The notes under the pieces were generated by a model. The model was not told where the DNA came from and did no database searches. It saw only the letters and a program-made list of their open reading frames with translations. Shown here in pieces: positions 2,452 to 19,078 of a DNA stretch of 64,000 bases; within the stretch, counting starts at the first letter, position 1, and each line of letters starts with the position of its first letter. Position numbers and translations under genes: made by a program. Origin of the DNA: Nitrospiria bacterium (GTDB lineage: Bacteria > Nitrospirota > Nitrospiria > JACQBZ01); assembly GCA_035498035.1 (NCBI GenBank), contig DATKAN010000015.1, positions 1 to 64,000 on the forward strand, in the 5' to 3' direction.

Positions 2452-5400
2452 CTACTGAAACAATTCTCTCCAGAAAAGACGGTGGGTTGTGCCCCCGCAC
2501 GCCGCCCCAAGAGGCGGCAAACCGCCGCTCATCCCGACCATGGCCATCACATCACAGTTCCCCAGCGGGACAGGGGGAATGTCTATCACGACCTGCGACG
2601 GCATTCCCGCACCCACCATGTCCGACACACGATCTCTTCGTTTGAGGACACCGCCGCCGTTCGTGGAGGTCTGATGCGCGGTATCGTTATTGGGCTGATA
2701 GGTATCGAAAACCGAATTGCCCGTCAGATAGTCGACTTGATAGATCCGCCCGACCCCGGTATCCGCCAGGCAGGGATCGGTCATTCCCGTCGACGGCGCA
2801 AAGGTTGAAATATTGACCACCCCATTGAAGAGGACGGCCGCGGAAACGACCTTTTCGCCGTTTTCGAATTCATTGAGCGCGATAAACCAGCCGCTCTTGG
2901 CCGCCAGAGCGGCCTTTTCATTGGTGACGGTTGCCTCATCCGTTGTTTCCTGCATGTTATCAAGCGTGGTGTTAAACAAATCGCCCTCGGTCAGTGTCGT
3001 CGACGATCCATCCACATCCTTTACCCCATAGATTCGATCGCAGGGGCCGGTGCCGTCCGCGCTGCAAACCGCCGTGGTATCGAGAGGATGTTCCCGATCT
3101 CCCGTTCCGAAGAAGAGAATGTAATAGCCGAGCTCACGCGTCACCTCCGGGCGGTAGAGGATCTTCCGATGGCTGGTCGCGTCGTTCGATTTAAAGAGGA
3201 TCCGCCCGGCCCAGTTGCTGGGATCCGCGTCGCTGACGTCGAAGCTCCACATTTGCCCGCCCACATCGCCGACGTAAAGCCGATCGGCGTAACCGTTCCG
3301 GTCGGTGTCGAGCACCGTCACGTCGCTGGGAATCGCGTAGGTCATCGACGTGTTGTTGCTGATGGAATAGCTCCAGATCCGGTTTCCGGTTTCCACCTCG
3401 ATGGCGTAGATGGATCGACCCTCCGTATCCGCCGTGGCCGGCTGGGCATCCTCATGGACGGGATCGTAGCCCCCGCCCACGAAGAACACATTCTTCACGC
3501 CGGAGCTGAGATTGACCTTTTTAATCGCAGGCGTGGACCAGGTCTGGCCCAGTTCGGTCAGGCCCGTATCCCCCCGATTGATATCCCAGAGGAAGCGCGG
3601 GTCGTCCGGATTCGTCACGTCCAGCGCATGATAGGATGTTCCGCCGCGGCGCTCTCCAAAAATCAGGATGGCCCGATCGCTTCCTTCGTCCCCGATGATC
3701 CCGTTGTTGTTGTGGTCGTAAATATACACCTTGGGCGAACCGTCGACCGAATAGGGATGGATCGTGCCGTTCAGGTTTTTCAGATACGGGAGTTGGTCCT
3801 TCGGAATGTAGGCCCAAAGTTCCTGGCCGGTCGCGTCGTCAAACGCGTGTATCATCCCGTCATTGGCGCCGACATAGATAACGGATCGGCTGGTGGAGTA
3901 CGAAACGACCGTCGGCCCGGAGTGCAGCACATCTCCGAGGATCCAATCCCGGGTCGTCGTGCTGTTGTTGTAGGAATCCTGGCCAAAGACAAATTTGATC
4001 AGCTGGTCCTTGCCGGCGGTATCGCCCGCGCTTAATCCGAGCACGGTCGGCGTAATGTTGGCGTTGGCAATCTCAAACTGATTGGACGCATTTTGCAACT
4101 GCGCATTCGTCCCGAAGTAGGTATAGATTTTTCGAACCCCCGTGGCGTTCGGATCGAAGTCCGTCGGGTTCAAGGCCTGGGTTCGCATCATGTCGCCGAC
4201 GCCGCCCTTCTCGACCAGGCCTCCATCCGCCACGGTGCTCCAATACGATACGCTCGTTTCGATGAAACTTCCATCGGGGTTTGTGGCCACGTTGCCGTCC
4301 TTGTCCACGATTTGACCCGATGAGTTAATGCCGTATTTCTTGATATTTCCGGACCAGAACGAATCGATATTCGGCCGGAAAAATCCGACATAGACGAAAT
4401 CCCCGCTGTAGGTGCGGTTTTCCGGGCTCACGGGCACCACCGGGGCGACGAACGACGTATTTTCCTCCACGATCTCCCCCAACGCGCTCAGAAAGGCCTG
4501 GGTCAACTCCTGGGCGGTGTCCGCGGTGAAAGACTTTCCTTTTCCGTTCGCGGCCGTATCGGCCAATAGCTGGTTGGCGACGGGATCGCCGGTTGAGAAT
4601 CCGATGGTGTAGGTGATGATGTTCTGCTTTCCGGACCCGGAGACGTTGGAGCTGGGAAGCAGGTCCTCGTCGTACCATTTTTTGGCTACATCGTCCAGAT
4701 AGTGGGATCCGCTGTCGGGATAATTTCCCGGATCCTTCCCGTTATTGTCGGTATCGCCCACCGCTGAGGCGAGAATGGGGTCCACGTCATGGGTCGAGAG
4801 ACCGTCCGTCATGAGGATGATGTAATTTTTCTGACAGGAATATTGCATAGGCGTTGTATAGGTCACGCCGGCGTTAAAGTAGCTCGCGGCCCCCTTGAAG
4901 TACAAGCCGGCCTCGTACATCGTCTCGGCCAAAGGGGTCCAGGTATCCGCCACAACGCCGTTAACCGCATTCACCAGATCCTGTTTGTTGGTACCGATCC
5001 CCATATCTTTAATTCCTTTGACGATATGCCCACCTTGGTCGTTTTTATATGTGGTCGCCGGCTTCCAGGAACCGAAGTTCATGAGACCGAACCGAACGCC
5101 GTCGGTGTTTTGAATGATATTCGTGATCACATCTTTGGCGATCTCCAGCTTGGGCTTCGACGTCGCCCCGGGTCCGCTCAGGTAGTTCAAATAATTTCCA
5201 AGGGCCGTCGTAACGCTCGAAGTGCCGCAGGTTCCGTTGGACTTCAATTTTCCCGTATAGCTCCCCGCGCTCGTGAGCGAGTTATAGGCCGCCGTACAGG
5301 TGACCGAGGATATGTTTGTAATGTAGGAATTCCAGTTCCCGCTTTGCTTTCGATAAACCTTGTTCTTTGAATACGAATCGTAACTGCTGTAATCGGTCGC

Positions 5401-5589
5401 CGGGTCGTAGGGATCGGGCGTCACGGCGACGTCGTCATTCATGCTCCCCGAGTTGTCGAAAATGATCAGCACGTTCGGCTGAATCGTCGTGTTGGTGGAA
5501 CCGTAGATATCGGTATCGTCGGCAAAGGAGCGGGCCGGCCATGCCAGCAGGGTGAAGACGCTCAACGCTATGATCCATCGGGTATACAT
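2452..5589 (-). CDS. pilY1: Type IV pilus tip/adhesion protein PilY1
   Basis: This 1045-residue protein has a signal peptide ending near ARSFA. An N-terminal von Willebrand A domain carries the metal-site motif FDNSGSMND near residue 45 and a second Asp in ILMTDGLS. The C-terminal half is a PilC/PilY1 beta-propeller: VYVGANDGMIHAFDDATG marks one blade, and DTDRNGYADRLYVGD is the Ca2+-binding loop typical of PilY1. The length fits PilY1 proteins (about 1000-1200). It is the last pilus gene of the fimT-pilV-pilW-pilX-pilY1 operon, with AGGAGG before the ATG and a 4-bp gap from pilX. PilY1 caps the minor-pilin priming complex and can act in adhesion or surface sensing. Confidence 0.95.
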   Translation of the reverse strand: MYTRWIIALSVFTLLAWPARSFADDTDIYGSTNTTIQPNVLIIFDNSGSMNDDVAVTPDPYDPATDYSSYDSYSKNKVYRKQSGNWNSYITNISSVTCTAAYNSLTSAGSYTGKLKSNGTCGTSSVTTALGNYLNYLSGPGATSKPKLEIAKDVITNIIQNTDGVRFGLMNFGSWKPATTYKNDQGGHIVKGIKDMGIGTNKQDLVNAVNGVVADTWTPLAETMYEAGLYFKGAASYFNAGVTYTTPMQYSCQKNYIILMTDGLSTHDVDPILASAVGDTDNNGKDPGNYPDSGSHYLDDVAKKWYDEDLLPSSNVSGSGKQNIITYTIGFSTGDPVANQLLADTAANGKGKSFTADTAQELTQAFLSALGEIVEENTSFVAPVVPVSPENRTYSGDFVYVGFFRPNIDSFWSGNIKKYGINSSGQIVDKDGNVATNPDGSFIETSVSYWSTVADGGLVEKGGVGDMMRTQALNPTDFDPNATGVRKIYTYFGTNAQLQNASNQFEIANANITPTVLGLSAGDTAGKDQLIKFVFGQDSYNNSTTTRDWILGDVLHSGPTVVSYSTSRSVIYVGANDGMIHAFDDATGQELWAYIPKDQLPYLKNLNGTIHPYSVDGSPKVYIYDHNNNGIIGDEGSDRAILIFGERRGGTSYHALDVTNPDDPRFLWDINRGDTGLTELGQTWSTPAIKKVNLSSGVKNVFFVGGGYDPVHEDAQPATADTEGRSIYAIEVETGNRIWSYSISNNTSMTYAIPSDVTVLDTDRNGYADRLYVGDVGGQMWSFDVSDADPSNWAGRILFKSNDATSHRKILYRPEVTRELGYYILFFGTGDREHPLDTTAVCSADGTGPCDRIYGVKDVDGSSTTLTEGDLFNTTLDNMQETTDEATVTNEKAALAAKSGWFIALNEFENGEKVVSAAVLFNGVVNISTFAPSTGMTDPCLADTGVGRIYQVDYLTGNSVFDTYQPNNDTAHQTSTNGGGVLKRRDRVSDMVGAGMPSQVVIDIPPVPLGNCDVMAMVGMSGGLPPLGAACGGTTHRLFWRELFQ

Positions 5590-5593
5590 GGTC

Positions 5594-6088
5594 TTATCCT
5601 CCTGTTGGTGCTGGAACGATTTTGTCCATCGCCAACTCTTGCTGGTCGGTGGAACCCAGGCTTCCCTTTCCGGTTGTATCGATCGCGAAATAGTTCGCCT
5701 CCCAATCCATTCCCATTTTGGATCCGGCCGGAGGCGGCCCGCTGCCCAGAAAGGTCACGGACCCCGTAGCCGTCGTATCGCCTTCCATTAAATCGACGTC
5801 CCCCGGAAATCCACCCGCAACCGTCAGTGTCCCCGGCCCGGTGGCCGGCACGACGAAGTTGCGGTTATCCAGGAGGGCATATTCGATCGCCGCACTGGCG
5901 GCATGGAAGGCCTCTCGAGACCGACGGTAATTCGCGGAGAGGGACAATTCGGTAGAGGACGTTGAAATGGTCGCCATGCCGATAAAGGTCAGCATCAGCA
6001 GAATCAGCATCGTCATGACGAGGGCGACCCCGCGCTCATCCGTCCACTCGGTACGGCCGCGATTCAGATATGATTTAAGTCGCTTCAT
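5594..6088 (-). CDS. pilX: PilX-type minor pilin assembly protein
   Basis: The 164-residue product has an N-terminal basic stretch, then ERGVALVMTMLILLMLTF, the hydrophobic PilX N-terminal helix. The ERG/V boundary resembles a prepilin site but lacks the Glu at +5 of classical pilins, as is usual for PilX. The remainder (SSTELSLSANYRRSREAFH, then AASAAIEYALLD) is the standard PilX N-terminal family signature. It lies between pilW and pilY1 on the same strand, the canonical order, and a strong purine-rich ribosome site precedes the ATG. PilX proteins help prime pilus assembly at the inner membrane. Confidence 0.88.
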   Translation of the reverse strand: MKRLKSYLNRGRTEWTDERGVALVMTMLILLMLTFIGMATISTSSTELSLSANYRRSREAFHAASAAIEYALLDNRNFVVPATGPGTLTVAGGFPGDVDLMEGDTTATGSVTFLGSGPPPAGSKMGMDWEANYFAIDTTGKGSLGSTDQQELAMDKIVPAPTGG

Positions 6089-6108: not shown

Positions 6109-6963
6109 TCAGGATGCGGCGTTCTTCAACCGGACCAGTGTTTCCACGGTCCGGGTTCGCGGCATACCGACGCCGGTCTCCGCATCTTTGATTATGGTCT
6201 GGGACGTAATCGTAACCCGCACCATCACTATTTTATCCAGATCGGCCGGGGCCACGGTATCCACCTCGGCCCCGCCGGTGCTCAGCGTATATTTGAAATC
6301 CATGCTCTGTATATGATCCGCCAACTGTTCGGGTGCCCCGGCATTGAGGGTCCGCTGAAGAATAAAGGAATTGGGGACACTGGGATCCGCTTGAGTGCTA
6401 TAGGTGATCGAGTCGACCGGACGGCTTAAAACCACATCGCCGTAGGACAATCCAACGGGTGCGGCATCCAATGTGATGTCGGTCCCGGCAATGGCGTTGG
6501 GGGTCATGGAATTGATGGTATAGTCGCCCATGGGCGTTTTCGAATTAATGGCTAAAAGGGTGACGCCGCTGCCCGGAGTGAATGTATTTCCGGGGGTATT
6601 CGCAACCGTGATCGTCGCCCCGACGGGAGGGTTTATCAGAAAGGTTGACGGCCCTTGCGCCGCCTGAAACGTGATCGAATCGGGGTTCGTATCATTTGTC
6701 GCCGTGATTCCCGTCTGACCCGCCTGAATCCCGAAACCGGCCGACCGTAAATCCCGGGTCAACAGATCAAGACTCGACCGGGCGTCGCTTTGTGTGTCGG
6801 CGACATCCTCCTGCACCACATAAGATTTATGCTGGGTCATGAAGATCGAAAGGACAAACACCATGGCAAAGCTGAGAATGGTCATGGCGACCATCAACTC
6901 GACCATGGTCATTCCGCGCCGATCCGTCATCACGTAAGGTGGTCTGGATAACTGTCGATTCAT
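6109..6963 (-). CDS. pilW: PilW-type minor pilin
   Basis: This 284-residue prepilin-like protein carries the class III signal DRRG/MTMVELMVAMTIL, with Glu at +5 of the mature form, followed by a hydrophobic helix. The downstream QSDARSSLDLLTRDLRSAGFG motif is diagnostic of PilW-type minor pilins, and the rest is beta-rich. It has a ribosome site (GGGAGAAG) before the ATG and sits 12 bp after pilV and 20 bp before pilX. It would be processed by the prepilin peptidase encoded at 19.1-19.9 kb and join the pilus priming complex. Confidence 0.9.
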   Translation of the reverse strand: MNRQLSRPPYVMTDRRGMTMVELMVAMTILSFAMVFVLSIFMTQHKSYVVQEDVADTQSDARSSLDLLTRDLRSAGFGIQAGQTGITATNDTNPDSITFQAAQGPSTFLINPPVGATITVANTPGNTFTPGSGVTLLAINSKTPMGDYTINSMTPNAIAGTDITLDAAPVGLSYGDVVLSRPVDSITYSTQADPSVPNSFILQRTLNAGAPEQLADHIQSMDFKYTLSTGGAEVDTVAPADLDKIVMVRVTITSQTIIKDAETGVGMPRTRTVETLVRLKNAAS

Positions 6964-6975
6964 GGATCTTCTCCC

Positions 6976-7413
6976 TTAGAGCGAACTGTTACCGACCCTC
7001 TCCACCAGACTAACGCTGTGGTTTCCGCCATCAAACCACGATACCGTATAGGTAATTGTTTTCACCCCTGTAATGGGGGTGTTGTCGACAACGGTGTACT
7101 GGCAGTTGTAGACCACGTTTTGGACCGGGACACAGGTCGGGTCGACGGCGTCGACGACGGCATTCAATTGAGGATCCGCATAGGGCAAGTTCGCGTAATT
7201 CACGATGCCCTTATCGGCATAAGCCGCCGCCGTGGTGAATTTGAACCCGGAGCTGTTGGCCCTAATCGACATGATCTGCATTCCGGAAACCGCCAGGAGC
7301 CCGACGGCCAGGATGACCAAAGAAACCGCCACTTCCAACAAGGTCATCCCCCCTTCGCCCGCAAGTCGGCCTTTCCGAAGAGGGATGAGATGTTTGTCAA
7401 CGAAGCGCCGCAT
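6976..7413 (-). CDS. pilV: PilV-type minor pilin
   Basis: The 145-residue product has a prepilin signal GEGG/MTLLEVAVSLVILAVG with Glu at +5 and a hydrophobic helix, followed by SGMQIMSIRANSSGFK, as in PilV. Two cysteines (in DPTCVPV and YNCQYT) could form a disulfide. An AAGGAGAATCC ribosome site precedes the ATG. It sits between fimT and pilW in the canonical order with gaps of about 10 bp. PilV is a minor pilin of the assembly-priming complex. Confidence 0.88.
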   Translation of the reverse strand: MRRFVDKHLIPLRKGRLAGEGGMTLLEVAVSLVILAVGLLAVSGMQIMSIRANSSGFKFTTAAAYADKGIVNYANLPYADPQLNAVVDAVDPTCVPVQNVVYNCQYTVVDNTPITGVKTITYTVSWFDGGNHSVSLVERVGNSSL

Positions 7414-7422
7414 GGATTCTCC

Positions 7423-7971
7423 TTAGCACGGTGTTTTAGCGTCCAGGGTCTGGATTCCCCCGATGCGCTGAATTTGAACCTGCATCGTTTCGGCGGCATC
7501 GCAGGACAAAAGCGTCATGGTCACCGGCGGGGCCGCCGGGGCCGAGATATAACCGCTTCCGCCGAAGCTGATCGACGTTTCATTGCCTCCCCCGTCGGTG
7601 ACGGACGTGAGCGAAACGAGCCCTCCCATGCCTTCCGTCCCCAACAGGCGCGTTGCCACGACGGGAGGCGGGTCGCATTCATCGCCAGGGTTGTTGGCAA
7701 CGGTGGGATCATCCTTGCACACGCGATAGGAGTCCGCGGCGGTGTCAAACACGACTTTGTATGTCAAATTCTCTTTTTCCGCAAACGACTGGGCTGTTCT
7801 TAGATCCCGGATCAGCGTCTGTGTCTTTTCACGCAAATTTAAATGATACCGGCTGTTCTTAAACATCGGAACGCCAACGCTTGCGACAATCGCAATAATG
7901 GCGACAACTATCATCACCTCGGTCAATGTCATGCCCTTTGTATTTTCTAAATTCACCGTTCGATTTATCAT
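7423..7971 (-). CDS. fimT: FimT/GspH-type minor pilin, first gene of pilus operon
   Basis: I start the gene at the ATG at 7971, which gives 182 residues. It is preceded by CAGGAGAATTTC, and the prepilin signal TKG/MTLTEVMIVVAIIAIVA follows soon after. The same frame is open to 8073 but only through the 12-bp repeats and the promoter, so that extension is unlikely to be translated. Glu at +5 and the FAEKEN segment match the GspH/FimT family. Two cysteine pairs occur in the C-terminal half. It opens the fimT-pilVWX-pilY1 operon, which appears to be driven by a sigma-54 promoter at 8044-8059. Confidence 0.87.
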   Translation of the reverse strand: MINRTVNLENTKGMTLTEVMIVVAIIAIVASVGVPMFKNSRYHLNLREKTQTLIRDLRTAQSFAEKENLTYKVVFDTAADSYRVCKDDPTVANNPGDECDPPPVVATRLLGTEGMGGLVSLTSVTDGGGNETSISFGGSGYISAPAAPPVTMTLLSCDAAETMQVQIQRIGGIQTLDAKTPC

Positions 7972-7972
7972 T

Positions 7973-8032
7973 GAAATTCTCCTGGGAATTCTCCTGGAAA
8001 CTCTCCTGAGAACTCTACTGCCAACTCTTCTG
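7973..8032 (-). repeat. Five 12-bp tandem repeats forming the fimT leader
   Basis: Five consecutive 12-mers fill this stretch exactly. On the minus strand, from distal to proximal to fimT, they are CAGAAGAGTTGG, CAGTAGAGTTCT, CAGGAGAGTTTC, CAGGAGAATTCC and CAGGAGAATTTC. The three nearest the ATG carry a full AGGAGA Shine-Dalgarno core; the two distal ones are degraded. The array ends one base before the fimT ATG and begins one base after the transcription start predicted from the sigma-54 site. Confidence 0.9.
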
Positions 8033-8043
8033 CCGGCATGAAA

Positions 8044-8059
8044 TGCAACCGACATGCCA
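8044..8059 (-). promoter_or_regulatory. Sigma-54 (-24/-12) promoter of the fimT-pilY1 operon
   Basis: The minus strand reads TGGCATGTCGGTTGCA, with GG and GC separated by exactly 10 bases and TTGCA at the -12 element, close to the TGGCACG-N4-TTGCA consensus. The predicted transcription start is 8033, giving a 62-base leader. Sigma-54 control of pilin genes through PilR is established in other bacteria, and a PilSR-type pair lies at 15.8-19.1 kb. Confidence 0.8.
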
Positions 8060-8175: not shown

Positions 8176-8189
8176 TGTAATGGATTACA
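8176..8189. promoter_or_regulatory. Inverted repeat, candidate upstream activating site
   Basis: TGTAAT-GG-ATTACA is a perfect inverted repeat centred about 149 bp upstream of the predicted sigma-54 start of fimT. That distance is typical for enhancer sites of sigma-54 activators. The assignment is inferred from position and symmetry only. Confidence 0.35.
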
Positions 8190-9654: not shown

Positions 9655-11112
9655 TTACCGGATATACCAGCTTCCTTTGAGCGGGATCACGGTCGGAAGA
9701 CCGGGATAGTAACCCGTCCGCAGCCCTGCGTCATACCAAACCTCCGGCTGACCGGCGCCGGTAACGCCCTGTTGTGCGATCAGGGCCCCAAACACCTTCG
9801 GATGACCTTCCACGACCAGTTGCCCGGCGGTCGACAGGACACCCTTGAAATGGACGCTCGGAAGAACGACCGTCTCCCGGGAATCCAAATTTATATCGTC
9901 CGACGGAGGTGCCTGGACTTGAACGGATCGCCCGGAACCCGATTCTCGAAGAGTCAAATGAGCCTGGATGGAATAAATGCCCTCCATATAACCCACCGGC
10001 AGATCCAAAGTGGCCAGATTGGTTCCATCCGGCGGTTTCTGATCAACCGTGTCGACAAAAACAAGCCCTCGGTCATTTTCAACGGCTTGATCCCCCAATG
10101 CTTGGGATGGCGTCTGCCGGTGCCCGGGATCCAAAATCCCATCCTGATATAGAAATCCCTCTCGATCCGTGGCGAAGTAAACCCCCCAGGTCTTCGCAAA
10201 GGTTTTTAGACTTTGATAATCCCAAGGAGCCAAACCGAAGCCCGGACGACTTTCGATTTGAAATTGGTGAAGGTGGCCGTATCCCTCCGACAAAAAAGGT
10301 TCCGTGCAGTTCGTACATTCTGGTTTGGGATTAATAATCGCCCCCCCTACGTAAAATTCGACCCAGGGGTCCTGTCGGCCGGAATCGGCATAAGGTTCCC
10401 CACTGACCCCCGCATTTGAATTTTTTTTCGGAACGGCGGCCAACGAGCTTCCGAAATCGGCCTGGCCCATCATCCGAACCTCTCCCCAATGCACCAGAAC
10501 GGGAACCGATCCGTTGGATCCCGGCCCGATCTGGAGCGGGGCTGTGGTCGGAGGAACGGGGCTTGGGGTGATTTCGACGCTCACGGTCCGGAGGGTCCCG
10601 GATCCGGTCATACCCGTCGCCTCCACGGTGCAGATGGCGCCCGCGCTTTTGGGGGCAAAGATCTTCAGGCTCGTAAGATCTCCCGCACCGCCCAACGCCT
10701 CGGCGAGAAAGCCCGGATGATCCGGTTCGGACTGATACCAAAAATCCGGTTGCTCGGCGGTTCCCGTAAACTGAGCCTGCCCTTTGTTATCATAAAATGA
10801 AGCCGACCCGCTGGCGTCGGTCATCCGTCGTGCCAGGAAACTCCTTCGTCCACCGACCGGTTCTCCCAGAGGAAAGGTCCCGATGTCCGGAAACGTCTCC
10901 GGCTCCTGAAACCATTGGAGCACCATCGCGGGTCCCGATTCGGCGAGATACTGCGCCTGGACCGTATCTTTTTGGTTGGCCGAGATGCCGATCTCGTCCA
11001 TGGACAAACGATAAGCCGAAAGCCCCAGCAGTGTGATGAGAAACAACAGACCGACCGTCACAACCAGGGCCATTCCCTGCTCTGAATCCAAGCGCCGCAT
11101 AATCCCGATCAC
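9655..11112 (-). CDS. Large PilX-like minor pilus assembly protein, second cassette
   Basis: The 485-residue product starts at a GTG overlapping the upstream stop (GTGA); an ATG at 11100 is an equally possible start. The N-terminus SEQGMALVVTVGLLFLITLLG followed by MDEIGISANQKDTVQAQYLAESG matches the PilX N-terminal family. The remaining roughly 400 residues are beta-rich, with a CTNC motif around residue 265. This is far longer than the PilX of the first cassette (164 residues). It ends the second minor-pilin operon; no pilY1 follows, and the next gene is convergent. It may carry a passenger or tip function that PilY1 provides elsewhere. Confidence 0.75.
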   Translation of the reverse strand: MIGIMRRLDSEQGMALVVTVGLLFLITLLGLSAYRLSMDEIGISANQKDTVQAQYLAESGPAMVLQWFQEPETFPDIGTFPLGEPVGGRRSFLARRMTDASGSASFYDNKGQAQFTGTAEQPDFWYQSEPDHPGFLAEALGGAGDLTSLKIFAPKSAGAICTVEATGMTGSGTLRTVSVEITPSPVPPTTAPLQIGPGSNGSVPVLVHWGEVRMMGQADFGSSLAAVPKKNSNAGVSGEPYADSGRQDPWVEFYVGGAIINPKPECTNCTEPFLSEGYGHLHQFQIESRPGFGLAPWDYQSLKTFAKTWGVYFATDREGFLYQDGILDPGHRQTPSQALGDQAVENDRGLVFVDTVDQKPPDGTNLATLDLPVGYMEGIYSIQAHLTLRESGSGRSVQVQAPPSDDINLDSRETVVLPSVHFKGVLSTAGQLVVEGHPKVFGALIAQQGVTGAGQPEVWYDAGLRTGYYPGLPTVIPLKGSWYIR

Positions 11113-11873
11113 CGATTTCTTAAATAAACTTCTGTCGTCATCGACCTTATCCTTTCGGGTGTCCTGGACAGTCGGGCGGTCAAATGAATCCGGACCCGAT
11201 ATACGTCCGGCAAAACCGCGCCCGACCGACCTTCACGATCCAGATAGATCAAATCCATGGAAGCCAGCCCCTCGGCCACGGGATTGGTACCCCCGTCCAC
11301 GGTTCGAAGGAGCTTAACGTGTGTTGAATCCACCGGCTTGAGCGCATACCGTACTTGGTTGATGATCTGAATCGTGCTGGCGGGAGGGAAGGTGCTCCTT
11401 AACCCCTCTGCGAATTCCAGGCCGTTATTGCTTCCATCCCTGGCCAGGGTATGTCGCTCACAGTAATCCAGCCGGCAGATCGAAACGACTTTTCCCCCTA
11501 CAAATTTTTCGGGAGCGCCATCGTAACGAATGGGCAACTGCAACTGCTCCGTTTGAGCCGTCTCCGTCAAGCGAGCAGTCGCCGCATCCAGGTTGGCCAG
11601 AAATTGGATCTCCTGTTCTTCGGCTTTGAGTATCCTTGCATCCCCATCCGGAAGACCGAAACCAATAAGCCCAAACTCTCGAACCATGAAATCCATCGCG
11701 GTTCTTACCTGTTGTTGGGCTTCGGCCGTATCCTCCTGAATAACGCTCCGTTGGTTCTGAAGGATTAAAAACTTCATCCCAAAGGCGGAGACCAGCGAAA
11801 AGACCAGTGCGGCCACCATCAACTCGACCAAGGAGGTCCCGTGCCTGTCCCGAATCGGCCCAAGGATCTTCAT
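11109..11873 (-). CDS. PilW-like minor pilin, second cassette
   Basis: I start at the ATG at 11873, which overlaps the previous stop (ATGA), giving 254 residues; upstream in-frame codons lie inside the pilV-like gene. The prepilin signal RHG/TSLVELMVAALVFSLVSA has Glu at +5, and EAQQQVRTAMDFMVREFGLIGFG is the PilW-type signature. Residue +1 is Thr. A C-x-x-x-x-C pair (CRLDYC) is present. Four-base overlaps on both sides imply translational coupling within this cassette. Confidence 0.8.
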   Translation of the reverse strand: MKILGPIRDRHGTSLVELMVAALVFSLVSAFGMKFLILQNQRSVIQEDTAEAQQQVRTAMDFMVREFGLIGFGLPDGDARILKAEEQEIQFLANLDAATARLTETAQTEQLQLPIRYDGAPEKFVGGKVVSICRLDYCERHTLARDGSNNGLEFAEGLRSTFPPASTIQIINQVRYALKPVDSTHVKLLRTVDGGTNPVAEGLASMDLIYLDREGRSGAVLPDVYRVRIHLTARLSRTPERIRSMTTEVYLRNR

Positions 11874-12262
11874 GGAACCACCCCATTCGATCGGATGGTC
11901 GTCAGGGCCAGCGTGTGGGTTCGATTTGTTTTGTCCGTCCACTCGACCGCAACATGAATCGTCGTGAAATGAGGGTAAGGAGCGTCGATCCGAAGGGTCC
12001 GGGTTCGGTTAAAACCTTCGGGATGATCGTCATCCTCAGGACGCCCATGAATCAATTCGTCATACGGGAACGAAATTTCCTCTTCCATCTTGGCCTGCGC
12101 CAAGGCGGCGGCCGTGGAAATGCGACGGCCGGCATCCAATCCGATCTGGCTCGCATGCGTCATGCTCAAGCCCGAAATCATTCCAACGGCGAGGATAAAC
12201 AGGCTTACCACGACTTCGATAAGGGATAGGCCGCATTGCCGGAGAACGAGATCGGGTCTCAT
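11870..12262 (-). CDS. PilV-like minor pilin, second cassette
   Basis: I start at the ATG at 12262, which overlaps the previous stop (ATGA), giving 130 residues. The prepilin signal RQCG/LSLIEVVVSLFILAVGM carries Glu at +5 and resembles PilV. The sequence continues with SGLSMTHASQIGLDAGRR, as in PilV proteins. It overlaps the fimT-like gene upstream and the pilW-like gene downstream by four bases each. Confidence 0.8.
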   Translation of the reverse strand: MRPDLVLRQCGLSLIEVVVSLFILAVGMISGLSMTHASQIGLDAGRRISTAAALAQAKMEEEISFPYDELIHGRPEDDDHPEGFNRTRTLRIDAPYPHFTTIHVAVEWTDKTNRTHTLALTTIRSNGVVP

Positions 12263-12726
12263 GTCAATTTCACTCTCCCGGTGGCCACAACGGTGATCTG
12301 CCGTTGCTCTCCGGAACGATTCCTTAAAACGATCGCGGTCCATGTGTTGGTCGTCCCTTGAGGATAAAAAGTGAGAATGGGGCCGCCCGAGGAGCTGACC
12401 AGGTCAATCCCTCCAAACCCCTGTCCCCCGTCCTGAAGATCTCTAACCCAACCGATTGGAACCCCGGGTTGGGAACCTCGTTCAATCTGATACCGCTCCC
12501 TTTCAAGGTCCAGAACAACCGAAACAGGCTGGCGCTCCGCCAGGGCCAGCTGCCTGGCCCAACGCAGGTCCGAAACAACGTCGCGGGCCGCACTGGTGAG
12601 CCGATGGTGAGGGAGCTGGGATATAAAACTGACGGAGGCCAGCCCGCAAAGGATTCCCGCAACGGCCATTACAATCAACAGCTCCGTCAGGGTGGAACCT
12701 TGCTGTATGACCGGTGTGGTGCGCAT
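12259..12726 (-). CDS. FimT/GspH-like minor pilin, second cassette
   Basis: The 155-residue product opens the second minor-pilin cassette, with GGCAGGAGC before the ATG. The signal QQG/STLTELLIVMAVAGILCG has Glu at +5, but Ser rather than Phe or Met at +1. DVVSDLRWARQLALAERQPVSV matches the GspH/FimT family. The C-terminal half has the beta-rich pattern of the family. I found no convincing sigma-54 or sigma-70 promoter in the 218 bases upstream. Confidence 0.8.
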   Translation of the reverse strand: MRTTPVIQQGSTLTELLIVMAVAGILCGLASVSFISQLPHHRLTSAARDVVSDLRWARQLALAERQPVSVVLDLERERYQIERGSQPGVPIGWVRDLQDGGQGFGGIDLVSSSGGPILTFYPQGTTNTWTAIVLRNRSGEQRQITVVATGRVKLT

Positions 12727-12922: not shown

Positions 12923-12950
12923 TTCAGGGTGCCTGAATGCGGATTCAGGC
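12923..12950. other. Mutually exclusive hairpins at the end of the sigma-54 activator gene
   Basis: TTCAGG (12923-12928) can pair with CCTGAA (12932-12937), or CCTGAA can instead pair with a second TTCAGG (12944-12949) as part of an 8-bp stem with a GCGG loop. The larger stem overlaps the stop codon of the activator gene. No T-run follows on either strand, so a simple intrinsic terminator is not supported. Confidence 0.4.
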
Positions 12951-15197
12951 CGATGGTTTATCTTCCATTTCTTTTTCCAGTTTCCGAATCCATCGGTAGG
13001 TGCGTTTCAATACTCGAGCGGCCTCGGTTTTACTGCCGTATTCCAGGATCGCCCGTTGGGCCATGGCCCACTCGATCTTTCTAAGGAAGGAATCCATCGA
13101 GCCTTCGATCTTCATGGCCTCGACAAGGGTCTGCCACTCGATTCGGTCGATCACGTCCTTAACATTCCTGCCGTCCATTTTATTCTCCCGCGGATCATGG
13201 ACCCGCACGGCCATCAGGGGGGAGTGAATCCCGTCACGGATCTCGGGCGGGAGGAACTCCGGAATTAGCATGGTTTGTGAGGCCGGTATCAAGGTCACGG
13301 CCCGTTCAAGGACATTTTCCAGTTCACGGATATTACCGGGCCAGGAGTAGGTCACCATTCGATGCAAGGCTTCCGGCGAAAGGGTTTGCACGTTTTTCCG
13401 AAGTCGACGGCTGAATTGGATCAGGAAATATTCGGCGAGAGCTTGGAGATCTTCCAGGCGTTCTCTTAACGGGGGCAGATGGATCGGGATGACATGGAGA
13501 CGGTAGTAGAGGTCTTTCCTAAACAATCCTTTTTCGATGAGCGCCTTGAGATCCTGGTTCGTTGCCCCAATAATCCGAACATCCAGCTTGATCGGGTCGT
13601 TGCCACCGACTCGCACTAGCTCCCGCTCTTGTAAAACCCTCAGGAATTTTACCTGGACGGTCGTCGGAATCTCTCCGATCTCGTCCAGAAAAAGCGTGCC
13701 CCCATCCGCCCATTCAAACTTCCCGATTTTGCGGGACAAGGCCCCCGTAAAGGCCCCTCGCTCGTGACCGAACAGCTCGCTTTCCAACAATTCGATCGGC
13801 ACGGCGGCGCAATTGACCGCCACAAATCGTCGGTCACTACGGTTTCCGGAGCGATGGATCAACCTCGCGATCAGTTCCTTTCCCGTCCCGGTCTCCCCCG
13901 TAATCAGTACGGTGGAGTCGGTGGGCCCGACCTGCCGCACCAGACCCAAGACGGCCTTCATGCCGGGACTTTCACCCATCGGCTTGGATGACGTCCATCC
14001 GTCGTTGACTTCCTGGACTTCTCGGCGCAGATACACATTTTCGGTCGTCAATGTCTTGTTTTCGGCCGCATAGGCCAGTAGCCGCTGCTGGGTCGCCTTC
14101 AGTTCCTGAAGATACGCAAACAGGAGACAGGTCATTTTCTGGACCCGTTTTTCAAGTCCCGCCGCGGAATGAACCGGTCGACTATGTTCCCGCCAGTAAA
14201 ATCGGTATCGGGAGTAGGGAGCCTCGTAGAAAGAACCCTCTCGAAAGACATATTCCAGAGAACCCGACCTCAAGGTCCCGCCCTGAGTGACTCGATAGGC
14301 CTTACAGGCGGGATCGATACGTTCCGTCGGGTCGGCCGCCCGCGGGATCAGGGTCCGCAGAAGGGTCGCTCCGCCCGATCTCGTTTCGGGTTTGATGATC
14401 ATCCCTCCGAGGAGTGCCTCCTGCGGGCCCGCGGAATGATCGGTGCCCGTTCCCAAAATATCGAAGGAGGGCGGGGCCAGGGGGATTTCCTCATCGGCGA
14501 GTTGCACGGCTTGAAAAACGGCAACGGTCCCCCCGCGGTCATTCTTCACGATCTTGAGCTGCGAGCCGGATTCTTCAAGGTCATAGCCTTCAAACTCCCG
14601 GACGATATCCCCGACCCGATACTGCAGGAACTCCTCGTCCAGATGGGCTTCCTCGACGAAATCATACAGGCGGACGAATCCCTCGTAATTCCCCTTCAGC
14701 ATGAAGTGGGTGGCCAGAAGCGGATGGAATCCCGGATCCCATTGCGAGAGCACAATCATCTCGGGGTCGGCGGGATTCCTGGCGACCGCCTGCAGGCGAA
14801 GGAACGTCGTGTAGGCACCGGCCCAGAGGCCGGAGTAGAGAGCGACCGTTCGGACATCATCGAAGGTCCGGGCAATGATCTCAAAGATCGATGGGATATG
14901 TCTCTCGCCCTGTCGCGCGGATCGAATAAAATAGTCGATCGCGGCTTCGCGGGCGATTTCCTTTCGACCCGACAGGCGTTCGGCCGTGCGGAGCACCTCC
15001 CGCAGCACTTCCTCGGGAAGCCAGGCATGATGGTCCATGAGAAGATCCTGAGGATCTTTAAGGGCGTCGTACCCCTCCACCCCTGAAAATAAGGCTCGCG
15101 GATTCACCTTGTTCATTTGTGATGGATAATAGATCTGGAGATGAGTGAGGAGAAGTTGTGTCAGAAAACCGGTGGCCCAGGCCGTCTGTGTCTGCAT
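12945..15197 (-). CDS. Sigma-54 enhancer-binding activator with unrecognised N-terminal sensor
   Basis: This 750-residue protein has a central AAA+ domain: Walker A GETGTGKE, the sigma-54 contact loop GAFTGA, Walker B-type FLDEIGEI, and the arginine-rich end YSWPGNIRELENVLERAV. A helix-turn-helix of Fis type closes the C-terminus (EYGSKTEAARVLKRTYRWI). The first roughly 330 residues match no domain I can name; there is no response-regulator Asp pocket and no obvious GAF or PAS. A helical region (about residues 365-395) links it to the AAA+ core. AGGAGG precedes the ATG. It lies beside the second minor-pilin cassette and may control one of the sigma-54 promoters in this window. Confidence 0.9.
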   Translation of the reverse strand: MQTQTAWATGFLTQLLLTHLQIYYPSQMNKVNPRALFSGVEGYDALKDPQDLLMDHHAWLPEEVLREVLRTAERLSGRKEIAREAAIDYFIRSARQGERHIPSIFEIIARTFDDVRTVALYSGLWAGAYTTFLRLQAVARNPADPEMIVLSQWDPGFHPLLATHFMLKGNYEGFVRLYDFVEEAHLDEEFLQYRVGDIVREFEGYDLEESGSQLKIVKNDRGGTVAVFQAVQLADEEIPLAPPSFDILGTGTDHSAGPQEALLGGMIIKPETRSGGATLLRTLIPRAADPTERIDPACKAYRVTQGGTLRSGSLEYVFREGSFYEAPYSRYRFYWREHSRPVHSAAGLEKRVQKMTCLLFAYLQELKATQQRLLAYAAENKTLTTENVYLRREVQEVNDGWTSSKPMGESPGMKAVLGLVRQVGPTDSTVLITGETGTGKELIARLIHRSGNRSDRRFVAVNCAAVPIELLESELFGHERGAFTGALSRKIGKFEWADGGTLFLDEIGEIPTTVQVKFLRVLQERELVRVGGNDPIKLDVRIIGATNQDLKALIEKGLFRKDLYYRLHVIPIHLPPLRERLEDLQALAEYFLIQFSRRLRKNVQTLSPEALHRMVTYSWPGNIRELENVLERAVTLIPASQTMLIPEFLPPEIRDGIHSPLMAVRVHDPRENKMDGRNVKDVIDRIEWQTLVEAMKIEGSMDSFLRKIEWAMAQRAILEYGSKTEAARVLKRTYRWIRKLEKEMEDKPSA

Positions 15198-15857: not shown

Positions 15858-17228
15858 CTAACCCTCGATCCCGTAATCCTTGATCTTGGTCAGAAGGGTT
15901 TTATAACTGACCTTCAAAATCTCGGCCGCGCGGGACTTATTCCCGCCGGTTTCTTTTAAAACCTTCCGGATCATCCTTGACTCGGCAAATTGGGTGGCGG
16001 CGTGGCTGACTTCCTGAAGCGATCCCTCCGTCTGAAGATCCGCCAAGCCGGTTTCATCCGTCGCCTTGACGCGGAGCCCCAAATGTTCCGGCAGGAGGAC
16101 TCGGCCATCGCTTAAAATCACGGCCCGTTCGATGCAGTTCTGGAGTTCACGGACATTGCCCGTCCATGGATGCTTGATTAATAATTCCATCGAAGCCGGA
16201 GCCACTTCCTTGGGTTCCTTCTTCAGCTCCTGGCAATAGAAACCCACGAAATGCTCCACCAAAGCCGGAATGTCTTCCGCGCGCGCTCTCAGGGGAGGAA
16301 TCGTGACGGGAAAAACGGCCAAACGGTAATAGAGATCTTCACGGAACAGCTTCTGGCTGATCGCGGCCTGGAGATCTTTGTTGGTCGCTGCAATCACCCG
16401 GACATCCACCTTGATCTTGACCGTACCGCCCACCCGCATAAATTCCTCGCCCTCCAGAACCCGAAGCAGTTTCGCCTGGAGGGCGAGGTCCATGTCTCCG
16501 ATCTCGTCCAGAAAGATGGTTCCCTGATTCGCCAATTCAAACTTCCCCATCTTTCGGACCACGGCACCGGTAAAAGCGCCCCGCTCATGTCCGAACAGTT
16601 CGCTTTCCAACAAGTCGCGCGGGATGGCGGCGCAGTTGATCGCCACAAAGGGCCCCTCCTTTCGGGGGCTTAAATAATGAACGGCCCGTGCGAACAACTC
16701 TTTACCGGTTCCGGACTCCCCGAGCAGCAGCACCGTCGTGTGACTGGCGGCCACCTTTTGAACCTTGCCGACCACCTCCAGCATTTTCGGGCTCTTGCCG
16801 ATGATCTTGGGCAATTTTAGATGCTTGGAGAACTCTTCACGCAGAATGAGATTCTCCGTGACAAGTCGTTGCTTCTCCAACGCCTTATTGATCAAATGAA
16901 TCAGATGGTCCGGATCGAAAGGTTTTGTGATGAAATCGTACGCTCCTTCTTTCACAGCCTTGACGGCCGTCTCAATCGTCCCGTAGGCCGTCATCAGGAT
17001 TACCGGAATCAATGGATTATGTTCCTTGACCACTTCCAGCACTTCCAGCCCAGACTTGTGCGGAAGCTTGAGATCGGACACGACCAGATCCACCTTGGAC
17101 TCCTTGAATTTTTCGAGACCCTCCCGTCCATCGCGCCCCACGATCACCTGATGCCCCTCGGCCTGCAGCGCTTGGCTCAGCATCTGGGCCATGCTTTCCT
17201 TGTCTTCGACCACCAAAATGACCGCCAT
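15858..17228 (-). CDS. pilR: Sigma-54 response regulator, PilR/NtrC type
   Basis: The 456-residue product has a receiver domain (residues 1-120, phosphoacceptor D52 in VVSDLKLP), a sigma-54 AAA+ domain with GESGTGKE, GAFTGA and FLDEIGDM, and a Fis-type DNA-binding end (GGNKSRAAEILKVSYKTLL). The ATG at 17228 has GGAGG seven bases upstream and overlaps the pilS stop by one base (TGATG); a GTG at 17231 is an alternative. Its position after a histidine kinase and pilD suggests PilR, the activator of sigma-54-dependent pilin promoters. The specific target is inferred. Confidence 0.88.
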   Translation of the reverse strand: MAVILVVEDKESMAQMLSQALQAEGHQVIVGRDGREGLEKFKESKVDLVVSDLKLPHKSGLEVLEVVKEHNPLIPVILMTAYGTIETAVKAVKEGAYDFITKPFDPDHLIHLINKALEKQRLVTENLILREEFSKHLKLPKIIGKSPKMLEVVGKVQKVAASHTTVLLLGESGTGKELFARAVHYLSPRKEGPFVAINCAAIPRDLLESELFGHERGAFTGAVVRKMGKFELANQGTIFLDEIGDMDLALQAKLLRVLEGEEFMRVGGTVKIKVDVRVIAATNKDLQAAISQKLFREDLYYRLAVFPVTIPPLRARAEDIPALVEHFVGFYCQELKKEPKEVAPASMELLIKHPWTGNVRELQNCIERAVILSDGRVLLPEHLGLRVKATDETGLADLQTEGSLQEVSHAATQFAESRMIRKVLKETGGNKSRAAEILKVSYKTLLTKIKDYGIEG

Positions 17229-19078
17229 CACCCCACCTCCATCAGCGGGAGGAGAATGCGAAAGGTTGTTCCGCGGCCCTCTTCACTGTTGACTTCAATC
17301 CGGCCCCCATGCGACAGGACAATCTTGTGGACCAGGGCCAGCCCCATCCCGGTCCCCTTCACTTTGGTGGTGAAAAAAGGGAGGAAGATCCTTTCGAGTT
17401 TATCCTTGGGAATGCCGATCCCGGTATCTCGGATATCAAGCGACAGTTCCTTTCGATGGCGCCGGTATCCCAAACGGAAATCAGAATGATGGTCGAGCAT
17501 CATGGCCCGAATCTCCAATGTCCCGCCTTGCGGCATGGCGTCCATGGCGTTCTGGAGAAGATTTCCGATGGCCTGACGCATCAATACCTCGTCCATCCGC
17601 ACCTCCGGAAGATCGTTCGGGATCGCGATTTCCAGGGAGGGTTTGATCGTCTTGGTCTGGACAAACAGGTGGTCCAGAAGCCGACGGATCAGCGGCTCGA
17701 GCGCCACAGGCTCAAGGTGCAGTTCGTCGTGTCGGCCGAAACTCAACAACTGTTCGATCAGCTGATTCATCGCGGTCAACTCCCGCATGATGGAAGCGAC
17801 CATCTCCTGCCCGGCATCGGGACCGGCCTCGGATGATGGAAGTTTCTTCGAAAGCAATTTCGTGAACCCCATCACGCTCCCCATATAATTCCGGAACTCG
17901 TGCGCGATTCCGGCGGACATTTCCCCCAAAACGGACAGGCGCCGCTTGAGTTCCACCTGCTCTTGCAAACTCTTGATCTCGGTGAGATCCGTGAAGACAA
18001 AGGTGGTACCGATCACTTCATTTTGACGATCCCGCAGCAACGACGTGCTGATTCCGACCCAGATCCGTTGCGGACTCGAGCCGCCGGAATTTGGACGGGT
18101 CAATTCGAGTTCCTGACGCGTGATCGTGGCCTGATGGTCCAGCGCTTGATCCAGCAGATGAACGACGCTGCTCTGTACACCGAACACCTCCTCACAGGTT
18201 TTACCCACCGCCGCCGAACCCGACTGCCCTAAAATCCGCTCGGCCGCATGGTTGAAGGTGGTGATGACACGCTCGGGATTAAACGTGATGACACCGCTGG
18301 CCACGCTTTGAAGGATGTTCTCATTGTAACCTTCAATCTCCTCCGCCCGCTCCTCGGCCCGAGTTCTCAAATGGTTTAACTCCTGTTCTTTCTCCTTGAG
18401 TTGACGAACCAATCCGTGAAATGTCCCGATCATCGAGGCCGTTTCCCCCGATGGGCCCGAAGCTTCGGCGCCGGACCGACGATTCCGAATCACGATCCGG
18501 ATCGAGTAAAAAACCATCACACCGATGATGGTCACACCGCCCACTTTCAGAAGCAAGGTGGTCGTCGCCGCCGCGCCCCCGGCGTCCAACGGCCGCAGTC
18601 CCAAATCCACTCGGAGCACGCCGACACGGCTCGGGTCCGGATCTTGAAGCGGAATGAAATACGACAGGATCGGTGTTCCGGACGAATCCGAAACCGGAAT
18701 TCTCAAAAAATTTTCACCCCCCAAGATCTCCTCAAATTGGCGAGGGGTTATTCCCTGGAAAGGGCTCGAGGATCCGATGCGGTCCGGACCGGAGGTGTCC
18801 AGCAATAATCGTCCCTCACGATCCATGATCGAGAGACGGTAGGCCCCATACCGTTTGGCCAGTTTTTGGAGAAAAGCGGAATCGGTCCGTGCGGTCCGCT
18901 CGGCGTTCCGGATTTCGGTTGCCAGGGTCTGGGTGACCGCGATGAGGTAGCGGGTGGCCTCTTCCATCCGATACCGATTTGCGGTCTGAAGCAGAACGGC
19001 GGCGTGAATCCCCCACAGCCCGGCAAACAGAAGCAGCAACACCGCGGACAATCGAACGAGTTGAGTTAACACCCGCAC
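17228..19078 (-). CDS. pilS: Membrane sensor histidine kinase, PilS type
   Basis: The 616-residue kinase has one N-terminal membrane segment, a periplasmic region to about residue 170, and a second membrane segment (LLLKVGGVTIIGVMVFYSI). A coiled coil follows (KEKEQELNHLRTRAEER), then a PAS domain near 250-365. The HisKA box is GIAHEFRNYMGSVMGFTKLL with His393. HATPase motifs are NLLQNAMDAM and DTGIGIPKD. The start is GTG. PAS plus HEFRN matches NtrB/PilS kinases. It lies 61 bp downstream of pilD and overlaps pilR. The two-segment periplasmic sensor differs from the multi-helix PilS of Pseudomonas. Confidence 0.85.
   Translation of the reverse strand: MRVLTQLVRLSAVLLLLFAGLWGIHAAVLLQTANRYRMEEATRYLIAVTQTLATEIRNAERTARTDSAFLQKLAKRYGAYRLSIMDREGRLLLDTSGPDRIGSSSPFQGITPRQFEEILGGENFLRIPVSDSSGTPILSYFIPLQDPDPSRVGVLRVDLGLRPLDAGGAAATTTLLLKVGGVTIIGVMVFYSIRIVIRNRRSGAEASGPSGETASMIGTFHGLVRQLKEKEQELNHLRTRAEERAEEIEGYNENILQSVASGVITFNPERVITTFNHAAERILGQSGSAAVGKTCEEVFGVQSSVVHLLDQALDHQATITRQELELTRPNSGGSSPQRIWVGISTSLLRDRQNEVIGTTFVFTDLTEIKSLQEQVELKRRLSVLGEMSAGIAHEFRNYMGSVMGFTKLLSKKLPSSEAGPDAGQEMVASIMRELTAMNQLIEQLLSFGRHDELHLEPVALEPLIRRLLDHLFVQTKTIKPSLEIAIPNDLPEVRMDEVLMRQAIGNLLQNAMDAMPQGGTLEIRAMMLDHHSDFRLGYRRHRKELSLDIRDTGIGIPKDKLERIFLPFFTTKVKGTGMGLALVHKIVLSHGGRIEVNSEEGRGTTFRILLPLMEVG

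Follow-up and report, generated by a model that had tools for sequence, protein, structure and literature searches.

In this work, which was based on a 64,000-nucleotide stretch of DNA from a Nitrospiria bacterium (this whole stretch is called the window) and on a comparison with related genomes, we found that the predicted leader of a sigma-54-dependent minor-pilin operon is built from five tandem 12-bp units, each of which carries an intact or degenerate Shine-Dalgarno (SD) sequence. We consider the array to be a tandemly multiplied ribosome-binding site that has evolved slowly, from one species to another, and does not work as a switch, a reading to which we give a probability of about 0.6. 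The leader itself is real, well supported and unusual, while there is nothing unusual in the biology of the operon. It is a common type IV minor-pilin set, with FimT/GspH-type, PilV-, PilW- and PilX-like pilins followed by PilY1, and its genes are arranged as follows:

7423..7971, minus strand: FimT/GspH-type minor pilin, the first gene of the operon (Pfam N_methyl and GspH)
6976..7413, minus strand: PilV-like minor pilin (prepilin motif just below the N_methyl cut-off; operon position)
6109..6963, minus strand: PilW-like minor pilin (N_methyl)
5594..6088, minus strand: PilX-like minor pilin (PilX_N)
2452..5589, minus strand: PilY1-like tip protein (T4P_PilY1)

A motif that resembles the array unit, AAGGAGAATCC-ATG, also precedes the second gene of this operon, and a PilY1 search of the genome contigs found no relative. 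There is also a second minor-pilin-like operon in the window (9655-12726, minus strand). This operon follows a sigma-54 activator gene and opens at 12726 with a GspH/FimT-type gene, and its leader has a plain SD, GGCAGGAGC-ATG, without an array.

On the minus strand, the leader of the first operon reads ATGGCATGTCGGTTGCATTTCATGCCG-G-CAGAAGAGTTGG-CAGTAGAGTTCT-CAGGAGAGTTTC-CAGGAGAATTCC-CAGGAGAATTTC-A-ATG, in which the following parts can be distinguished:

7973..8032, minus strand: array of five 12-bp ribosome-binding-site units, which fills the predicted leader
8021..8032, minus strand: unit 1, CAGAAGAGTTGG, degenerate SD, anti-SD pairing -3.8 kcal/mol
8009..8020, minus strand: unit 2, CAGTAGAGTTCT, degenerate SD, anti-SD pairing -2.4 kcal/mol
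7997..8008, minus strand: unit 3, CAGGAGAGTTTC, anti-SD pairing -7.7 kcal/mol
7985..7996, minus strand: unit 4, CAGGAGAATTCC, anti-SD pairing -7.4 kcal/mol
7973..7984, minus strand: unit 5, CAGGAGAATTTC, anti-SD pairing -7.4 kcal/mol, the presumed working SD of the first gene

Re-reading of the sequence reproduced exactly the coordinates that had been given in the original prediction, i.e., a transcription start at 8033, five units from 8032 to 7973, a single A at 7972 between the array and the pilin start codon, and the ATG at 7971-7969. The division into three strong and two degenerate units was borne out by the pairing energies (-7.4 to -7.7 against -3.8 and -2.4 kcal/mol), which were computed with the standard anti-SD; the anti-SD of the genus is canonical, as judged from the 16S end (...GGATCACCTCCTTTCT) of G001, a genome of the same genus that was used for this purpose as the 16S 3' end was not found in the genome of the window. 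In unit 5, 6 nt separate the end of AGGAGA from the A of the ATG, and none of the upstream copies is followed by an ATG or GTG at a distance suitable for initiation. The periodicity of the array is far above chance, with a self-match at period 12 of 40/48 compared to 28/48 in the best of 60 dinucleotide shuffles; among periods 6-40, only the double period of 24 (36) also scored above 28, and Tandem Repeats Finder detected the array at periods of both 12 and 24. Its units are identical to one another at 8-11 of the 12 positions. The pattern GGAGA-N7-GGAGA-N7-GGAGA with 0 mismatches has one site in the whole 2.67 Mb genome, which is this array.

The promoter and its candidate regulators are located upstream of the array:

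8044..8059, minus strand: sigma-54 -24/-12 site TGGCATGTCGGTTGCA, consensus match
8033, minus strand: predicted transcription start (+1), 12 nt downstream of the -12 C at 8045, from sigma-54 geometry
8176..8189, minus strand: palindrome TGTAATCCATTACA, at which a sigma-54 enhancer-binding protein may bind (candidate upstream activating site)
15858..17231, minus strand: PilR-like response regulator, a sigma-54 activator with HTH_8 (Pfam)
12945..15197, minus strand: second sigma-54 activator (Sigma54_activat)

The site matches TGGCAYRN4TTGCW with 0 mismatches and with the GG/GC spacing of sigma-54 promoters; the genome has 13 such consensus sites, compared to two for the reversed pattern, and it encodes RpoN (Sigma54_DBD, E 1.4e-60). 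The same site is identical in the sister species G002 and differs at one base in G001. The promoter is further supported because it is conserved 115-117 bp downstream of TGTAATCCATTACA in five family genomes (G000, G001, G002, G004 and G005), the G004 copy of the palindrome differing at one base. A similar pair of palindrome and sigma-54 site was found in two other families, spaced 96 and 120 bp, and the reversed control for this pattern gave 0 matches in 267 genomes. The palindrome, which has a single perfect copy in this genome, is likely to be an activator-binding site and offers a motif for finding the regulon. Both enhancer-binding proteins encoded in the window are possible activators of this promoter, the PilR-like regulator (15858..17231) as well as the second one (12945..15197). 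Taken with the consensus, its conservation and rpoN, these data uphold the earlier proposal that a sigma-54 pilin operon has a predicted leader consisting wholly of SD-bearing repeats.

The number of units was proposed to vary, and it does so between species: with one genome representing each species, there are five units in the window, three in G002 and one in G004 and G005. The G002 leader follows an identical promoter and reads CAGGAGAGTTCC-CCGGAGAGTC-CCGGAGAGGCCC-A-ATG, with units of 12, 10 and 12 bp, and in both G002 and the window the array begins at +2. GGAGA is intact in 3/3 units of G002 and 3/5 units of the window, while the flanks differ. In G004 and G005, which belong to another genus of the same family, the same type of promoter is followed by a leader of 16-24 nt that ends in CGGAGAATTCG-ATG or CGGAGTTTCG-ATG and thus resembles one array unit. 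The short leader of G001 is of another kind and lacks this unit, and the FimT of G001 shares only 40% identity across 85 aligned residues. When 270 genomes of the class were searched for the three-unit 12-bp pattern ending in ATG, it was present in this genome only. The pilin gene of G002 (L004) starts with ATGATAAAAATGATAAATC, in which the start-codon region is duplicated so that two in-frame ATGs follow the three-unit array.

The array thus has the form of a tandemly duplicated ribosome-binding site, with SD units placed head to tail before a start codon and a unit that matches the single ribosome-binding site of G004 and G005. Judged from sequence, the simplest history would be the multiplication of this site in tandem while the promoter and the start codon remained fixed. 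The ancestral leader may have held approximately one unit (an SD, then AATTYN, then ATG) directly after the sigma-54 start, and in this genus further copies of the unit would have arisen in situ by duplication, downstream of +1 and ahead of the ATG, so that the sister species would have approximately three and the window five, three of the latter keeping a good SD. The direction of change is probably from few to many, although the order and number of the duplications are uncertain because the searched set holds one close orthologue with an array. The copy adjacent to the ATG presumably initiates translation of the first minor pilin, its SD being the one that is used, and the upstream copies would at most be extra holding sites for the 30S subunit on a longer leader, which may alter the output modestly and not in proportion to their number. 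The equal translation of leaders with two to four standby modules (PMC3936740) is in line with a small effect, but such an effect is not assured: a laboratory precedent for the duplication, a tandem ribosome-binding site that arose in evolved E. coli when 10 nt were duplicated ahead of ascB, raised ascB expression (mRNA) 5-6 fold (PMC4488073).

Several other explanations were weighed against a multiplied ribosome-binding site. Each unit combines GGAGA with UUYC, and neighbouring units could pair and bury the SDs until a helicase, temperature or a protein opens them. Such a self-pairing attenuator, which we consider unlikely, agrees with the predicted opening cost of the last ribosome footprint, which climbs from 2.0 kcal/mol with one unit to 5.7 with two and 9.7 with three and then reaches a plateau (10.0 and 10.5 with four and five), so that most of the change falls between one and three units and towards less access; the SD cores of units 3-5 are also only 35-53% unpaired. 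However, the fold of the array is unexceptional or mildly stable (z -1.8, or -1.2 with the gene start, and -0.05 in G002), and no Rfam covariance model matched the leader up to E 1. Moreover, the single-unit leaders of G004 and G005 have opening costs of 8.5-9.4 kcal/mol, similar to those of the multi-unit leaders, and hence the energy model gives no strong reason for control by copy number.

A duplication without any effect on expression is, in our estimation, somewhat more doubtful. Such a neutral relic would agree with the loss of a good SD from the two distal units and with viral contigs, in which the SD pattern was not enriched (39 matches, of which two were non-coding, compared to 101 and six for the reversed-hexamer control). 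On the other hand, GGAGA was kept in all of the G002 units and in three of those in the window despite the differing flanks, and a leader altered between +1 and the ATG would hardly be without any effect. Very slightly more doubtful again is the proposal that the repeated SDs act as a multi-site 30S buffer or a self-pairing attenuator set by the number of units, which would tune the supply of minor pilins and the frequency of pilus assembly.

The original prediction went further and saw in the array a possible phase-variation or dosage device in which slippage gains or loses 12-bp units and thereby changes minor-pilin translation in steps. This part was not supported, and we now regard it as improbable. 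The copy numbers of 5, 3 and 1 across species speak for it, and dosage could matter, as the minor:major pilin ratio controls pilus dynamics in V. cholerae (PMC13249403). Nevertheless, units that are identical at 8-11 of 12 positions are not the near-identical units of a phase-variable tract and would be unusual in an array that slips actively, so that slippage does not seem to have been recent or frequent. The 12-base step also failed in the sole available comparison, in which the arrays of the window and G002 differ by 26 nt and one unit has 10 bp, neither being a multiple of 12. In addition, the predicted opening of the last site is nearly flat across three to five units (see above), and standby modules were found to have no additive effect, leaders with two to four synthetic modules having shown the same translation rate (PMC3936740). 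What stands of that prediction is the sigma-54 repeat leader and the difference in copy number between species.

Multiple CsrA/RsmA sites are very improbable: three AGGA motifs 12 nt apart that overlap the SD do resemble a CsrA target, but this candidate was set aside as neither this genome nor any of the seven family genomes searched yielded a csrA gene, while the same search was positive in two other genomes of the class and in controls. A coding repeat or leader peptide is just as improbable and was rejected: although the frame is open from an upstream ATG (at 8039 or the one inside the promoter) through the array, encoding ...VEFSGEFPGEFPGEFQ and ending as ..GEFPGEFPGEFQ-stop in a 4-base ATGA overlap of its TGA with the pilin ATG, both candidate ATGs precede the predicted +1, and the frame continues into the pilin in G002 and G001, neither the stop nor the peptide being conserved. 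The open frame itself, MACRLHFMPAEELAVEFSGEFPGEFPGEFQ, spans 8039-7968 on the minus strand and extends further upstream through the promoter, and translation of the conserved promoter bases happens to give MA(C/Y)RLH in three species.

A scan of 84,980 species genomes for SD arrays returned at least 119 stretches. Among the matches listed, 46 were loci with an ATG that opens a frame of 50 codons or more, and 7/46 passed the non-coding filter; most of the other listed loci lie in coding repeats. The seven listed non-coding loci include arrays before argC-like, DUF3303 and ankyrin genes, and some of them are GAA-rich and of low complexity. A few of the listed arrays before unrelated genes look genuine. 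L176, L091 and L156 are independent three-unit 12-bp SD arrays, which are followed by genes for a 104-aa protein without a Pfam match, a DUF3303 protein and an argC-like semialdehyde dehydrogenase. Overall, arrays of SDs ahead of start codons seem to be uncommon and to occur sporadically, and a search of the openly licensed literature for multiple or tandem SDs found no natural array of this kind. The leader described here is a clean natural case of the multiplication of a ribosome-binding site, with states of one, three and five units in related species behind the same type of promoter, and the series is well suited to asking whether extra SD sites without a start codon help, hinder or do nothing in initiation.

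Phase-variable repeat tracts as a rule have near-perfect units and show variation within strains. The array shares with repeat-tract promoters and leaders of this type the position of short tandem repeats beside the expression signal of a surface structure, but its units have diverged, and the one difference known so far separates species. Promoters of the PilR/pilA type likewise have a -24/-12 element and a PilR-like activator gene nearby, whereas the promoter studied here drives a minor-pilin/PilY1 operon; in P. aeruginosa, the minor-pilin/PilY1 operon depends on AlgR (PMC5979040). Standby sites resemble the array in that an upstream leader is able to hold the 30S subunit before it docks at the start site, but they are defined by a single-stranded surface beside hairpins (PMC3936740), whereas the present leader offers repeated SD sequences as putative holding sites. 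The closest likeness in form is to the tandem ribosome-binding site of ascB (PMC4488073), in which a segment of approximately 10 nt that bears an SD was also duplicated head to tail before a start codon. The ascB site, however, has two copies, arose under laboratory selection and lies in the middle of an operon, while the array described here has up to five copies, is natural, has persisted over the divergence of species and fills a sigma-54 leader.
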